A DNA stretch of 64,000 nucleotides, taken from assembly GCA_029554345.1 (NCBI GenBank), contig JAKPJF010000106.1, positions 1-64,000 of the forward strand, read 5' to 3'. The notes below the pieces were generated by a model. The model was not told the DNA's origin and searched no databases. It saw only the letters and a program-made list of their open reading frames with translations. Origin of the DNA: Spirochaetota bacterium. GTDB lineage: Bacteria; Spirochaetota; UBA4802; JAFGJZ01. The position numbers and the translations under genes are program-made. Shown piece by piece: positions 39,605-47,385 of the stretch (positions are counted from its first letter, which is position 1; the number at the start of each line of letters is the position of its first letter).

Positions 39605-42600
39605 TCAGAAACGTGCGATAATCATTTTTATAGTGCCTACACCGCCATCAAGACCGGTAAGAGCTTTACCTATTACACTTCCTGTTTTTTCAAACGAATC
39701 AACGGTTCCCTTCATTCCGCAGCCGGGAGTAGGTGATGTAACGATAAAATCTCCAGGTTTGACCGGTGAAATTCTCGCGTCGATTTTGACTAAAACTGTT
39801 CCATAGAGTGCAACCGGATAAGCTGATTTATCTGCACCTGAATCATTCATTATTACAGAAGGGTTTCCGGAAACAATTCCGACTACCGATTTATTATACG
39901 GGATGTGAGATTTCGCAAGCGTTCCGCCGTTTTCGGAAATTACCAAAATATCTCCCGCCGATACGAATTCTTCCTGATCTACAATGTGCATTTCTGTTAT
40001 ATTCGAAGGAGCCTCATTCTCTGAATCAACTGAATTTATTTTAATCTGTCCGCTGAATTCGGATTTACCTTTCGCGTGAAAAGCTTTTCCTTCTCCTTTC
40101 AGCTTGAGAGATGAATCGTAAGAATCTATAGTTCCGAAGCCGTCGGCTACAATCGCGAAATCGTGTTCGCTTGAAAATACTCCGCCGGCGCCGAATCTTG
40201 ATACTCCGAGAACACCGCATCCTTTTTCATTGTTGTTTCCTGTTGACTGACCGCGCACTCCGATAAACTGGCTGTGTCCGGTGACGCCGTAAGAACTTTT
40301 TCCTGAAATGTTTTTTCCAGCTACACCTGTTATCGCACTTGCGGAAGATTCAGATGAAGAATTTTCCGCGTATATTACAGAAGAAGACTCAGGCGGAGGA
40401 GTGATGCCCGTATATTTTTCTGCTCTATCGGCTTTTATTGAGATAGTGCCTGAATGAGAATTGAATTCATGAACTTTGGATGCGTAATCGTGATCATGCG
40501 GGAGAGGATGGCGTTTGTCTGAAAGACGTTTGTCATCTGACTGAACCGCGTGTAACTTTTTGCTTTCGCCGTCATCGGCAAAGCGCATTATGCCGTAGTT
40601 TTCAACATCGGCTTTTTTCAGCCTCTTATCTGAACCTTGAACCGCAACATTAGGAGAATCTTCGCCGTCTTCAGCGAGTTCTACTATTCCCTTGTTTAGA
40701 GTCGTTGCAGTTCTGAGTCTGTCGTCATTGGACTGAACCGCGGCGAAAGATGCGGTTTCTCCGTTTGATGCAAAGCGTACGATTCCATGATTTAAATTAT
40801 CTGCATGACGCAGTCTCTTGTCCGAACCCTGAACAACGGTTCCGGGAGTTTCTTCTCCGTCAGGACAAAGAGCGGATATCCCTTTTCTTCCCACTGCGGC
40901 AGGTTTAAGCCTGTCATCGTTCGACTGAACTGCCGACATTGGAGCCGATTCGCCGTTTGCTGAAAAGCGAAGTATTCCTTTCTCTTTCTCATTTGCATCG
41001 CGGAGTCGGCGGTCGCTCGACTGAAGCGCGGCCATCGGAGATACCTCACCGTCATCCGCGAAACGCATAATTCCTTTTGATAATATTGTTGCGTCTTTTA
41101 TTCTCTTGTCCGAACCCTGAACCGCAACATTAGGAGCATCTTCTCCGTCTTCAGCTAGTTCTACGATTCCCTTTGAAAGAGTAGTGGCGTCTTTGAGTCT
41201 TTTGTCCGATCCCTGAACGGCTTTCAGTTGAGAGCTTTCACCGTCGGATGCAAAAATCATTATCCCTTTATTTTTTTCGGAAGCATCAAGTAATCTTTTG
41301 TCGTCGGATTGAACAGCTGTGCCGGGTTTTGTTTCTCCGTTTTCCGCTAGTTCAACGATTCCCTTCGAAGCGGTTGTAGCAGGTTTTAATCTTGAGTCGT
41401 TTGCCTGAACTGCTGTGTCAGGTTCGCTTGCTCCGTCTTCCGAAAGCATCACGATACCCTTGGATTTGGTTGTTGCATCCTTGAGTCTTCTGTCATCGGC
41501 AGAAACCGCTTTATCTGCTTCACTTGCTCCGTTCGCTGCGAATTGAACAATACCTTTAGAAAAAACAGAAGCGTCTTTAAGTCTCTTATCATTTCCCTGT
41601 ACGACAAGACCGCGTTCGGCAGAACCGTCTTCTGCGAGTCTTGTTATACCGTATGTTTTTTCAGTTGCGAGTTTGAGTCTTTTGTCATTGCCTCTTACAA
41701 CTCCAAGGTCTGCCGCCTCGCCGTCGGGGCAAATTCTAACAATACCGAAACTTTGTTCGGTGGCCTCTCTAAGTCTTGAGTCGGAACCCTGAACCGCGCA
41801 TTTCGGATTCTGTTCCCTGTCATAAGCGAGACGTACGGTTCCGTTTGAGGATTCTGTTGCGGGCTTGAGCCTGTTGTCGCTTGCCTGAACCGCGGTGAAA
41901 TCTTTTGATTCGCCGTTGTTGGCAAAAATCACTATGCCCTTGAAAAGATTGGATGCGTCTTTCAGACGGCGGTCATCGGATCTTACAACCGCGGAGTCGG
42001 AAACTTCGCCGTCCTTTGCCATCCGCACAACACCCGGAAGAAAAACCGAAGCATAGGGCGGTGTGAGACCCGCATGTGAATGTGTTCTTTCCATCGGAGA
42101 CGCGAAAAAATTCATTTCTGCAATTCTAATAGCGAAATCCTTACCGCCGAGACTGACCGCTTCGGTTTCAAATCTGATATATCTCGCATTTAATGTGTCG
42201 AAAGAAAAAGAATAACTTCCGCCGGCTTCGGCTGAAAAATGTTTTTGTCCGCAGGCATATGTAAATAGTTTTTTGTCCGGGCTTACTTCGATTGAAAAAT
42301 CAGATGGAAATCCTAGAGCATTTTCAGGTACTTTTAATGATATTGCCGAGAGCGGATAACAAAATCCGAGATCGAATGTCATAAGAATTTTTTCGGCTGA
42401 TTGAAAATGTTCTGATTCAAAAAAGGTATCAGCTTTGCCGTCAAAGAGGAATTCCTTTCTTCTTTCGTGCGAAAGATCTTTACATCCTCCGGAATGATTA
42501 ATGCCGGATATTCCGAAAAGAACGCGTTCGAATTCGGCAAAAAAGCTGGAATCAGTCTGACGGCATTTTGTTATAAAAATTCTTGCGAAACGGGCGCTTA

Positions 42601-42928
42601 CAAGCGGCAGATTAATCGCAAAAACATCCGACTGAGAGACATAGGCTGTTTCAGAATGAAGGACTGACCATTCTTTTCCGTCAGAGCTTATGTCAATTCT
42701 GAAATCTTCAGGAAACGCGACTTTACGAGCCGGATTGGAACTTATTTCGATATAGCTGAAAAACAGTTCTGATTCAAATTCGAAAAGGAGAAATTCGTTT
42801 TCGGATTTTGAAAGAGATGCCGATTTCCATTTTCCTGTTTTAATTGACGATGAATAAGCCGGGTCGCACGATGACGCTGAAATAGATTTAGGCGTTATGA
42901 ATCGTTTTCGGGATATATTAATCAGCAT
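39605..42928 (-). CDS. Discoidin / tail-fibre-like repeat protein
   Basis: The 1107-residue product has four parts. Residues 1-140 and 150-280 look like two F5/8 type C (discoidin) carbohydrate-binding domains, with FPEDFRIDISSDGKEWSVL and FPSDFSIEVSPDKKLFTYA as the matching strands. Residues 298-809 are sixteen tandem 32-residue repeats (consensus KGIVxLAxDGExxPxxAVQG then SDKRLKDAT). Next comes the fibre linker LSDKRHPLPHDHDY, then Gly-rich turns (GVTGHSQFIGVRGQ). Residues about 970-1107 form a C-terminal module (KPGDFIVTSPTPGCGMKG, VIGKALTGLDGGVGTIKMI) common in fibre and S-layer-like proteins. There is no signal peptide. GGAG precedes ATG. Related repeats occur in phage tail fibres, but no other tail gene is present. 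Confidence 0.85.
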   Translation of the reverse strand: MLINISRKRFITPKSISASSCDPAYSSSIKTGKWKSASLSKSENEFLLFEFESELFFSYIEISSNPARKVAFPEDFRIDISSDGKEWSVLHSETAYVSQSDVFAINLPLVSARFARIFITKCRQTDSSFFAEFERVLFGISGINHSGGCKDLSHERRKEFLFDGKADTFFESEHFQSAEKILMTFDLGFCYPLSAISLKVPENALGFPSDFSIEVSPDKKLFTYACGQKHFSAEAGGSYSFSFDTLNARYIRFETEAVSLGGKDFAIRIAEMNFFASPMERTHSHAGLTPPYASVFLPGVVRMAKDGEVSDSAVVRSDDRRLKDASNLFKGIVIFANNGESKDFTAVQASDNRLKPATESSNGTVRLAYDREQNPKCAVQGSDSRLREATEQSFGIVRICPDGEAADLGVVRGNDKRLKLATEKTYGITRLAEDGSAERGLVVQGNDKRLKDASVFSKGIVQFAANGASEADKAVSADDRRLKDATTKSKGIVMLSEDGASEPDTAVQANDSRLKPATTASKGIVELAENGETKPGTAVQSDDKRLLDASEKNKGIMIFASDGESSQLKAVQGSDKRLKDATTLSKGIVELAEDGEDAPNVAVQGSDKRIKDATILSKGIMRFADDGEVSPMAALQSSDRRLRDANEKEKGILRFSANGESAPMSAVQSNDDRLKPAAVGRKGISALCPDGEETPGTVVQGSDKRLRHADNLNHGIVRFASNGETASFAAVQSNDDRLRTATTLNKGIVELAEDGEDSPNVAVQGSDKRLKKADVENYGIMRFADDGESKKLHAVQSDDKRLSDKRHPLPHDHDYASKVHEFNSHSGTISIKADRAEKYTGITPPPESSSVIYAENSSSESSASAITGVAGKNISGKSSYGVTGHSQFIGVRGQSTGNNNEKGCGVLGVSRFGAGGVFSSEHDFAIVADGFGTIDSYDSSLKLKGEGKAFHAKGKSEFSGQIKINSVDSENEAPSNITEMHIVDQEEFVSAGDILVISENGGTLAKSHIPYNKSVVGIVSGNPSVIMNDSGADKSAYPVALYGTVLVKIDARISPVKPGDFIVTSPTPGCGMKGTVDSFEKTGSVIGKALTGLDGGVGTIKMIIARF
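40502..42037 (-). repeat. Sixteen 96-bp tandem coding repeats
   Basis: Reading the - strand, residues 298-809 split into 16 units of exactly 32 codons with no spacer. G2, the Gly/Asn-Gly turn near positions 9-10, the V/A-V/L-Q/R core near 17-19 and D22-x-R-L/I are conserved, while positions 4-8 and 11-16 vary. Units 10 and 15 are nearly identical (ELAEDGED.PNVAVQGSDKR), which points to recent duplication or conversion inside the array. Units are diverged enough at the DNA level not to look like a young minisatellite. Confidence 0.9.
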
Positions 42929-42951: not shown

Positions 42952-42985
42952 CATATTTAATTAACTTAAATATGCTGACTGTCAA
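42952..42985 (-). promoter_or_regulatory. Promoter of the fibre gene overlapped by an inverted repeat
   Basis: On the - strand TTGACA (42985-42980) is followed after 16 nt by TAATTA (42963-42958). The inverted repeat CATATTTAA (42952-42960) / TTAAATATG (42966-42974), 9 bp with a 5-nt centre, lies across the spacer and -10. A dimeric repressor site is the natural reading. The fibre start codon is 24 nt downstream of the repeat. Confidence 0.5.
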
Positions 42986-43064: not shown

Positions 43065-43081
43065 GAAAACGGAGGACGGTG

Positions 43082-44041
43082 TTGATAGTAAATTATCTTG
43101 AGGAAAGGACTCCCAAGGGTTTTACCCTGAAAATAGTTCAGAAAAAGCTCAATTTTCTGGTTTTTGACCAGAAGGGTTCATCTGTTTATTCCGACAAGCA
43201 GTCTGCCCAGGTCGTTCACCGTATTCCGGTAGTGGCTTTTTTCGGAAATGAGTTTTCTGTCAAGTCCCGCGCACTCGGTGAATATAATCTGTATAAAGTA
43301 TCACGCGGAAAGATAATCATTCCGTATACCGTCTATGGTCAGGATGAAAACCGTTATCTGATGATAGATACGGATGAGGAAATTGATATCATGCCCGTGA
43401 AGGCTGTTTTTCATGAACAGCTGATTACTCTCGTAAAAGAAATAGATTCGGGATTGAAACCCGATTATATCGTAATAGATAATAATGTGCCCGAAAACGA
43501 TTTGGTAGTCGCAAAAAACCGGTGTCCTTCGTCTGCGATAATCAATATTATGGATGTGCCTCAGAAAATTGAGGTCGAAGAAAATCCGGAAGACAAACGC
43601 CGTCTTGCAGATGAGTTTTCTGATATTAATTTAAACATGCTTTCGCAGAATCCGGTTTTTTTAGCCCGCATACATCTTAGAAATTCGGCTGTTGCAAGAG
43701 TAAAACAGCTGCTTCTTGATTTTGATCTTTCGAGCATCGACGCCGGATATATTCTGACTTTTATCCGCACAATGCTCAAGAATTCAAGCGATGAACTTTC
43801 AAAGATAAAAAATCAGCTTGCCGATCTTGAGAATGATTTTGCTTTTTACGTAAGCGTTGTGGACAAGAATCTCGAAGAGGTTCAGGGCCGCATTTCGACA
43901 GCTGAAAATTCCCAAGCCTTGTCGTCGTACAAGACTCTTCTTGCCAAGGCGCGCAGTGTTTATGATGAAAACGGAACAGACGAGAAGATGGACGAAATAG
44001 AACAGATGATTATTGACCGCAGAGAGGAAATTTCTAAATGA
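43082..44041 (+). CDS. Unknown cytosolic protein with C-terminal coiled coil
   Basis: The product (about 319 residues) has a beta-rich N-terminal half (TLKIVQKKLNFLVFDQKGSS, RGKIIIPYTVYGQDENRYLM) and a helical C-terminal part (about 225-319) whose heptads SKIKNQLADLENDF and EVQGRISTAE predict a coiled coil. I do not recognise a family. No ATG start fits: GGAGGA at 43071-43076 is 5 nt from a TTG at 43082 and 2 nt from a GTG at 43079, so TTG is preferred. It overlaps the next gene by 4 bases (ATGA), so the pair is co-translated. Confidence 0.65.
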   Translation: MIVNYLEERTPKGFTLKIVQKKLNFLVFDQKGSSVYSDKQSAQVVHRIPVVAFFGNEFSVKSRALGEYNLYKVSRGKIIIPYTVYGQDENRYLMIDTDEEIDIMPVKAVFHEQLITLVKEIDSGLKPDYIVIDNNVPENDLVVAKNRCPSSAIINIMDVPQKIEVEENPEDKRRLADEFSDINLNMLSQNPVFLARIHLRNSAVARVKQLLLDFDLSSIDAGYILTFIRTMLKNSSDELSKIKNQLADLENDFAFYVSVVDKNLEEVQGRISTAENSQALSSYKTLLAKARSVYDENGTDEKMDEIEQMIIDRREEISK

Positions 44042-45075: not shown

Positions 45076-45900
45076 TCACTTAGGTTTCCATTTGACGCAA
45101 GGCTTACTATAGCCACTGTCGGTTGTCAAAGGTTCGGATTTTAAGATGTCAATATTAATCCTAAAAATATTGTCTCCTGATACATAGATAATTGTCTTTC
45201 CGTCGGGTGTCCAGCAAGGACTATGTCCTGACGGTACAATTTCTCTCGAACTTCCTGTATCTAAATGATATAAGCAAACACCGGCTCCAGTATAATATGC
45301 AATGCGCTTTCCATCTGGTGAAAGAGAGCCATGATCCAGAATATAAGTAGTATGAATATCTTCATCTCCGGTGGTGAGATCCAATCGATAAGAATCGCTT
45401 AATTTTAGATAGTATATATATTTCCCATCCGGTGATGCGCTCAAAGCGTTTGCTTGAGCGCCAATATTATATCTTCGTATAATCGTTCCGTCAGGTTTTG
45501 CGGAGACTATATTGTAGATAGAACCGTTTTCTTCGTAATAGTAAATCTTTTCACCGTCCGCAGACCATGTCGCAGAACTGGACTCAATAGTCGACAAAGG
45601 CTTTAAGTCTGTTCTGTCAGAATTAATTATATGAACATAAGGAGTATTCGCAAGACCTCTTTGAAAAAGTATTCTTTTGCCGTCGGGCGACCATGAAAGC
45701 ATGTTATCTTCTCCGCTGTCTGTTATTTGTCTTTGATTTGAACCGTCGAAATTCATTATATATATGTTGCCGTCTCTGACAAAACATATCTCAAGCTCCT
45801 CATGAATCTCGCGTTCATAATAGCACGAATTGATTGCTGTTAGCAGAAGAATGATGGCAGAAAGTTTTACGGTGGTTTTTTTAATCATAAAAGTAACCAT
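45076..45900 (-). CDS. Beta-propeller (TolB/WD40-like) lipoprotein, copy 2
   Basis: The product has a lipoprotein signal (LSAIILLLTAINSCYYERE, lipid Cys in INSC) and repeated propeller blades with SWSPDGKRILF, TWSADGEKIYYY, SASPDGKYIYYL and SLSPDGKRIAYY, ending CWTPDGKTIIYVSG. These are PD40/TolB-type blades; the function is probably binding rather than catalysis. In-frame starts are 45900 and 45888; 45900 lies 5 nt after the previous stop. It is a tandem paralogue of the next gene upstream, sharing the signal region almost exactly. Confidence 0.8.
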   Translation of the reverse strand: MVTFMIKKTTVKLSAIILLLTAINSCYYEREIHEELEICFVRDGNIYIMNFDGSNQRQITDSGEDNMLSWSPDGKRILFQRGLANTPYVHIINSDRTDLKPLSTIESSSATWSADGEKIYYYEENGSIYNIVSAKPDGTIIRRYNIGAQANALSASPDGKYIYYLKLSDSYRLDLTTGDEDIHTTYILDHGSLSPDGKRIAYYTGAGVCLYHLDTGSSREIVPSGHSPCWTPDGKTIIYVSGDNIFRINIDILKSEPLTTDSGYSKPCVKWKPK

Positions 45901-46709
45901 TTGATTTATTTCGGTTTTCCCTGCACGCAAGGTGAAGAACATCCACCCTCGGTTGTCAGCGGTTTATTATTAGTTCCATCTATATTTATTCTGTAAATAT
46001 CACCAGCTGAAATATAGACAATTGTTTTTCCATCTGGTGTCCAGCAAGGGTCATATGCATTTGGTAAAAAATCAATGTATGATGTTTCGTTCCATAAATG
46101 AATATGACTTACTAGTGTATATGTTGCTGCAATCGTCTTTCCGTCAGGGGAAATGGATATTGATGTATAACCTGCATTAGTTTCATATATGTCATTAGTA
46201 TTATTGGTTAAGAGATTTATTCTTCTGAAAGGATAAGGAGCGCCGGTGTTTTCAGTTAGATATAAATAATTATCATCCGGTGATAAAGTTGGATATGCTA
46301 ATGACTTAATGAAATTATAACTTTTGATAATATTCGCGTTTGTTGTTGCGATGAAAACATAGGAAGTTGGGGTTCTTGTTCCTGCAAATACTATTCTTTT
46401 TCCGTCAGAAGACCATGTCGGACATATGTTGGTATCTGGAATAGAAGTGTGAGTTAATTGCTTGAGTCCGCTTCCATCTGCGTTAATTACAAATATTTCA
46501 CTATTGCCATCTCTGTCACTGTGAAAAAGAATTTTTCTTCCGTCGGGGGACCATGATGGTGCATTATCGTAAGCACTTACGGGAGGATAAGTAATCTGTG
46601 TTTGTTCAGAGCCGTCAATATTCATAGTCCAGATTGAGCCGCTTCTAACATAGCAGACTTTCAGTTGATCGGATTCTCTTTCATAATAGCACGAATTGAT
46701 TGCTGTTAG
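45814..46709. repeat. 30-bp direct repeat in the lipoprotein signal regions
   Basis: An identical 30-bp stretch occurs at 45814-45843 and 46680-46709 (beginning TTCATAATAGCACGAATTG), covering codons of the lipobox and the residues just after it in the two propeller genes. The rest of the genes has diverged, so the signal region is either under stronger constraint or was exchanged recently. Confidence 0.85.
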
Positions 46710-46754
46710 TAGAAGACTGATGACTGCAATTTTAAAGGCGAACTTTTTACTCAT
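45906..46754 (-). CDS. Beta-propeller (TolB/WD40-like) lipoprotein, copy 1
   Basis: This paralogue carries the same signal (ISLLLTAINSCYYERE) and blades such as SWSPDGRKILFHSDRDGNSE, TWSSDGKRIVFAGTR, TLSPDDNYLYLT and CWTPDGKTIVYISAG. The ATG at 46754 overlaps the stop region of the barrel gene (TATGAGTAA), so the two are co-translated; a TTG two codons earlier is less likely. With the barrel gene and copy 2 it forms a three-gene - strand operon. Members resemble TolB-like lipoproteins of unknown partner. Confidence 0.82.
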   Translation of the reverse strand: MSKKFAFKIAVISLLLTAINSCYYERESDQLKVCYVRSGSIWTMNIDGSEQTQITYPPVSAYDNAPSWSPDGRKILFHSDRDGNSEIFVINADGSGLKQLTHTSIPDTNICPTWSSDGKRIVFAGTRTPTSYVFIATTNANIIKSYNFIKSLAYPTLSPDDNYLYLTENTGAPYPFRRINLLTNNTNDIYETNAGYTSISISPDGKTIAATYTLVSHIHLWNETSYIDFLPNAYDPCWTPDGKTIVYISAGDIYRINIDGTNNKPLTTEGGCSSPCVQGKPK

Positions 46755-47385
46755 ACCCAACGCCTCTGTTTATTCCTGAGAAATTGTAGCCGATTGACGC
46801 CGTGAACATAAAGCCTTTCAGGCCTTTTGCCTTGCTCGAAAACATCGGGCTTTCGTATCCGGCAGAAATTGAAAACATATATTTCTGTGACGCGATCCAG
46901 AGAATAGAAGCGTTTGCCGCCGCATAAGGGGCTATGCCTGTTTGCGTTTCGGTCTGCGAATAGTCGTAGAAGTAACCGAATTTCTTCGGCTTCATTATTT
47001 TAAAATAAGCTAATCCGGCTGAAAGCGAAGGCACTATATAGAAATTTGTTCTGAACAGTTGAAAGCGGTATTCAAGCCCGACTGAAAGCGGCGCGTAGAA
47101 ACGTGTTATTTCATCGTGTTCGCCCTTGTTTTCTCTGTTTGCCGCCGCAAACAGATCTGCGGTTATGAATGTGTTTCTGAGGCCGAATTTTTTCGGAAAA
47201 TCATTTCTGATATTTATTCCGCCGCCGTACAAAGTTCCTTCATCTTTCGTTAGAAGCTGGTTTCCGATAAGAGAACCGGAATATCCCGCGTTGAGATCAA
47301 ATGACAGAATGCAGAGAAAAGTAATTGTTAACGCAAAGAGTATTTTCGAAAATAAACCGTTTTTGCCGGGGCAGTGAACTCTCAT
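46747..47385 (-). CDS. Outer-membrane beta-barrel-like protein
   Basis: The 212-residue product has an N-terminal signal (hydrophobic run ILFALTITFLCILSF, cleavage near LNAG) followed by amphipathic beta strands rich in Tyr/Phe and Gly (LSVGLEYRFQLFRTNFYIVP, SISAGYESPMF, MFTASIGYNFSG). It lacks a C-terminal Phe but has the alternating pattern of small 8-10-strand barrels. It is the first gene of a three-gene operon with two propeller lipoproteins, suggesting an envelope complex. The first Met could also be an inner one; the position of the signal supports the region chosen. Confidence 0.7.
   Translation of the reverse strand: MRVHCPGKNGLFSKILFALTITFLCILSFDLNAGYSGSLIGNQLLTKDEGTLYGGGINIRNDFPKKFGLRNTFITADLFAAANRENKGEHDEITRFYAPLSVGLEYRFQLFRTNFYIVPSLSAGLAYFKIMKPKKFGYFYDYSQTETQTGIAPYAAANASILWIASQKYMFSISAGYESPMFSSKAKGLKGFMFTASIGYNFSGINRGVGYE

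Follow-up and report, generated by a model that had tools for sequence, protein, structure and literature searches.

Why does a spirochaete keep a long gene for a tail-fibre-like protein when no tail genes stand beside it? The gene lies in a 64,000-nt stretch of contig JAKPJF010000106.1 from a Spirochaetota bacterium (the window; Table 1). A first-pass annotation had described it as a solitary gene without tail machinery, encoding either a glycan-binding fibre, of the cell surface or of an injection system located elsewhere, or a released adhesin with an unknown export route. The solitary arrangement and the lack of tail genes nearby both held: the gene is monocistronic, without an operon partner, and ends 8 bp from the end of a convergent neighbour and starts 150 bp from the start of a divergent one.

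Architecture of the fibre-like protein

Table 1 Features of the fibre-like gene and its surroundings (window coordinates), with plasmid-borne proteins that share its C-terminal head (locus:coordinates).
Feature	Position	Strand	Basis or remark
Fibre-like gene	39605..42928	-	Intact ORF, 1107 aa
Discoidin domain 1 (F5_F8_type_C)	42560..42883	-	PF00754 above curated cut-off
Discoidin domain 2 (F5_F8_type_C / NedA-like galactose-binding)	42158..42460	-	PF00754 and PF22633, residues 157-257
Shaft, sixteen 32-residue tail-fibre-type repeats	40499..42034	-	Residues 299-810, zero indels
Pro/His neck (HDHDY...HEFNSHSG)	40439..40498	-	His and Tyr columns invariant in alignment A1
Gly-rich (GV-G-type) stretch	39995..40402	-	Gly spacing conserved in alignments A1/A2
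C-terminal head, Peptidase_G2 / phi29 gp12 intramolecular-chaperone-like	39608..39994	-	3gqh, PF11962, motif comparison
Candidate operator, AT-rich 9-bp inverted repeat CATATTTAA-N5-TTAAATATG	42952..42974	.	Perfect in window
TTGACA box, likely own promoter	42980..42985	-	By-eye recurrence upstream in several relatives
Divergent neighbour, 320-aa spirochaete protein	43079..44041	+	Linked to fibre gene in both classes
Plasmid KPGD-head proteins	L093:3096-3953, L095:2472-3905, L096:2886-3887, L097:3339-4283, L098:3111-3911

Pfam searches recovered the two proposed discoidin-like domains (PF00754, E 5e-15, 56 bits against a cut-off of 28.2, in two stretches), and the same profile was above cut-off in 25/25 family members. 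By sequence similarity only, these modules match CBM32-type carbohydrate-binding structures, consistent with the glycan-binding type suggested by the annotation. XRCC1_N matches, seen in 11 of the 25 members, were taken as the common galactose-binding-like fold, not as DNA binding.

The shaft is indeed made up of sixteen repeats of one fixed length (GIVxLAxDGE....AVQxxDxRLxxAT), in which the DxRL-type motif is never off register in any relative scored. Their tail-fibre type was corroborated by a match of the array to PHROG_910 (tail collar fibre; E 1.2e-10, three stretches); solved structures of gp12 short tail fibres matched weakly (E 0.76). The Pfam phage fibre profile Phage_fiber_2 (PF03406) left the window protein unmatched and hit only one of 25 members, below the Pfam cut-off (E 0.019); of the profile searches proposed in the annotation, F5_F8_type_C and fibre repeats of the PHROG_910 type were thus found and the Pfam phage fibre domain was not. 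BURRH and Fibrinogen_BP matches were set aside as repeat or low-complexity. The repeats are thus of the type found in T4-type tail collar/short tail fibres; in contrast to these, the spirochaete gene lacks accompanying phage particle genes, encodes an N-terminal discoidin pair and behaves as a cellular core gene. A fibre architecture is likely, and family resemblance suggests a trimeric rod. Three repeats modelled from their mutual alignment (pLDDT 53) hinted at a beta-beta-alpha arrangement, while residues 777-1107 modelled alone as a monomer reached pLDDT 30.

Both C-terminal elements named in the annotation, a Pro/His linker (HPLPHDHDY) and a KPGD...GKAL module, are present and conserved. 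By inspection, the Gly-rich stretch between them may adopt a beta-solenoid-like fold. For the head, a profile that took in six plasmid-borne proteins from other phyla had one plausible PDB match, a weak one, to the phi29 pre-neck appendage fragment 3gqh (E 0.022). Peptidase_G2 (PF11962) also matched weakly: 6/14 head sequences gave a match, the best at 1e-4, as did 3/25 full-length members, the best at 0.0065, and the order of head motifs is the same as in the C-terminal chaperone of phi29 gp12. Weakly but consistently, these sequence comparisons suggest that the head is related to that intramolecular-chaperone domain. 3gqh starts with D-F-A-E, and D-x-A-E was found in 6/6 other-phylum homologues. 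Motif comparison shows that the Asp with which the cleaved phi29 gp12 fragment begins is missing from the aligned spirochaete heads; the Glu is retained in the order of the window and gone in Leptospirae. Asp 692 and Glu 695 of gp12 are, we assume, required for autocleavage, in which case the missing Asp implies that the spirochaete head is probably retained as a permanent cap.

Other-phylum proteins with the KPGD...GKAL head (for example Paraburkholderia WP_338943791, Streptomyces WP_329391821, Runella WP_114070692) keep a D-x-A-E-x-F motif and often have no signal peptide by inspection, but are short and lack discoidin domains and 32-residue repeats. Proteobacterial, cyanobacterial and actinobacterial plasmids carry stand-alone genes for KPGD-head proteins with no obvious signal peptide, two of these genes (L093 and L095) adjoining a metalloprotease-like gene.

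Upstream, the annotation had proposed a separate promoter with an operator-like repeat. The repeat exists, but its counterpart in the sister species is imperfect, at 8 bp, and none was seen upstream in other relatives; a promoter consensus scan gave 2 matches against 1.2 expected from shuffles, not above chance. In the order of the window the fibre gene often faces the divergent 320-aa protein, for which domain and structure-database searches found no recognisable domain and no solved relative. In the order, many loci (L026, L033, L038, L042) encode a convergent, probably secreted protein family of ~200-250 aa 3′ of the fibre gene. No member is recognisable in the window itself, which carries, at 45076-46760, a paralogous pair of adjoining secreted proteins with TolB-like WSPDGK repeats.

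Distribution, selection and repeat number

In the order of the window, 44/47 genomes, its own among them, gave a homologue in whole-genome searches. The three genomes without a match are 71-76% complete, and every tested genome above 76% completeness has one. The gene is single-copy where the contig is whole and split over pieces in fragmented assemblies. A second class, Leptospirae, carries homologues in 39/48 genomes, with several of the absences within the Turneriella genus, and a draw of 393 genomes across the phylum gave 85 matches, largely from the window's order and Leptospirae. A related-locus search of genome contigs recovered the sister species alone. Compared with this species, the gene shows 72.5 nonsynonymous and 384.5 synonymous differences (dN/dS 0.034), with no domain reaching 0.08, which argues for a working gene and not a prophage relic. 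Taken from these sequence data, the fibre gene is a vertically inherited core gene under purifying selection.

The annotation had asked for a genome-wide search for sheath and baseplate genes: the contractile sheath (Phage_sheath_1, PF04984) was found in none of the carriers tested, and Baseplate_J (PF04865) is absent from the window's genome and sporadic among relatives, although either HMM used singly could miss a divergent system. Across 59 related genomes the sheath occurred once, in a genome without the fibre gene (G044:C29:12969-15643, represented by L024 and L025; 73% complete). No phage or viral relative was found in 50,697 phage records, IMG/VR or viral contigs. Repeats of tail-fibre type and a head of phage type are what would be expected of an orphan fibre from a contractile injection system or prophage, or of a decaying prophage remnant. 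Together with vertical inheritance, however, the sheath and Baseplate_J results make an orphan injection fibre unlikely, and with strong purifying selection and no homologue among phage records, we regard this whole class of explanation as very improbable. The suggestion that the gene supplies a fibre to an injection system encoded elsewhere was therefore not upheld: it behaves as a core and not a mobile gene.

The repeat period is 32 in all proteins scored from both classes, and the number of repeats is constrained too. Leptospirae have eight in 16/16 proteins scored, a count that excludes two mis-scored by the neck pattern and three without a recognised neck. In the order of the window, 16 is both the maximum and the mode (16/26), with 14-15 in six proteins and 7-10 in four; MAG assembly can collapse identical repeats, which is suspected for these last four. 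For repeats 1-5 and 16, positional counterparts in different species are more alike than different repeats within one protein. Among repeats 6-15, likeness within a protein is almost as high as between positional counterparts, and in one species these repeats are up to 92% mutually identical with the number still at 16. Near-identity of these central repeats is a sign of concerted evolution. Recombination that homogenises repeats should also alter their number; that the number holds suggests that length is under selection.

Linkage to parAB in Leptospirae

Leptospirae loci typically run from the 320-aa protein through a Fis/sigma54-like regulator to parA, parB and an HTH gene, with the fibre gene last. 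The fibre gene is co-directional with parA-parB-HTH and often overlaps the HTH gene by 4 nt; one family has a gene for a small membrane protein inserted in the parA-parB-HTH-fibre order. Annotations of L. interrogans and Turneriella parva give the same parA-parB-HTH-fibre order. The L. interrogans orthologue, LIC20001/LB001 (‘discoidin domain-containing protein’, A6J42_RS01265), was assigned its gene number by domain annotation and a mass match, and lies on the 350-394-kb replicon of that species, chromosome II. T. parva DSM 21527 carries its copy (TURPA_RS21035) on the 25,287-bp plasmid pTURPA.01, where parA, parB, HTH, membrane protein and fibre genes are followed by methionine-salvage genes (L090, NC_018021.1, 7491-15290). 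Both proteins belong to the same family as the window protein (discoidin N-terminus, 32-residue repeats, neck, head, no signal peptide), eight repeats being counted in LIC20001 against 16 in the window protein; both genes, unlike that of the window, stand just after parA-parB-HTH.

A fibre that segregates or anchors a replicon together with ParA, ParB and the HTH protein would account for this position. L. interrogans chromosome II has the fibre gene directly 3′ of parA-parB-HTH, the T. parva plasmid has it a little further on, and most of the remaining Leptospirae loci examined share the arrangement, several with the 4-nt overlap. We nevertheless consider a part in replicon maintenance quite unlikely, as the fibre gene does not adjoin parAB in the order of the window, the linkage may merely mirror conserved gene order near an origin, and the fibre is missing from two relatives in the Turneriella genus whose genomes are at least 93% complete (G176 and G107, 93% and 99%). 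A domesticated phage tail-fibre protein that acts inside the cell as a ruler or tether and is passed on along with the ParAB/replication locus of a secondary replicon, serving cell or replicon architecture, is a doubtful reading.

Cellular location and possible role

As the annotation noted, the protein lacks a signal peptide, and it has no transmembrane segment either. A signal peptide or lipobox was found in 0/22 homologues: averaged over 15 residues, hydropathy within the first 60 aa peaks at 1.1 or less in these 22, as against 2.0-2.7 in exported neighbours. Proteins of the window's order also contain 5-12 cysteines each. In L. interrogans, LIC20001 was identified by mass spectrometry from heat-stressed cell lysate on a ClpB trap (5 peptides, 9% coverage; listed mass 91.0 kDa; PMC5979558), and the mass computed here for the orthologue is 90.97 kDa. 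Recovery from lysate is no proof of a cytosolic location, because the pull-down also recovered a lipoprotein (PMC5979558). The gene served as one of unchanged expression in RT-PCR on host-adapted cells (PMC3953431), and LB001 is a candidate outer-membrane or extracellular protein in two bioinformatic papers (PMC2387172, PMC5348505). LIC20001/LB001 is expressed and is so far known as a hypothetical protein, no functional study of the family having been found in the open-access literature.

The missing signal peptide, the cysteines, the position beside parAB and capture by a cytosolic chaperone lean towards the inside of the cell, none of them as proof, and the fibre is more likely intracellular than a surface structure. 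Discoidin domains are mostly extracellular, which counts against this reading. The same fibre could instead be a surface or released adhesin, reaching the outside along an unrecognised path (flagellar type III export, lysis or vesicles), whose discoidin modules would bind host, sediment or partner-cell glycans. Their resemblance to CBM32-type carbohydrate binders and the predicted outer-membrane or extracellular location of LB001 fit such an adhesin, as does a flagellar export apparatus in nearly all of these genomes (FlhA in all complete genomes searched), but flagella are equally common in spirochaetes without the fibre, so the apparatus is not specific. Surface adhesins usually diversify, yet both discoidin domains have a dN/dS of ~0.03, and an exported role sits poorly with 0/22 signal peptides and the many cysteines in the order. 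An adhesin is a possibility that we hold only tentatively.

The reading that we prefer, at a probability of roughly 0.5, is a vertically inherited trimeric fibre of fixed length, built from domesticated phage tail-fibre modules, that serves as a spirochaete core protein, a ruler or tether, probably inside the cell. Domain order, repeat number, vertical inheritance, purifying selection, the lack of an export signal and sheath-free carriers are what sequence provides for it. The protein would fold in the cytosol into a rod of fixed length, probably a trimer. Its N-terminal discoidin pair would bind a ligand, which may be a glycan, a lipid head-group or a protein, and the shaft of 16 × 32 residues would set a distance. 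Neck, Gly-rich stretch and G2-like head would seal the C-terminal end and hold it together. The head of phage relatives drives trimer formation before being cleaved off; that of spirochaetes is probably kept as the cap. The fibre may in this way span two sites as a ruler or tether.

The family, previously undescribed, is a fibre-like core protein of fixed length shared by two spirochaete classes. It includes a copy in the agent of leptospirosis, beside the partition genes of its chromosome II. Repeats known mainly from phages and injection systems occur here in a conserved cellular gene with a constrained repeat number, and the protein is probably a rod of fixed length with an everyday cellular job. 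As length is kept despite homogenisation of the repeats, a role as ruler or tether would be directly testable.
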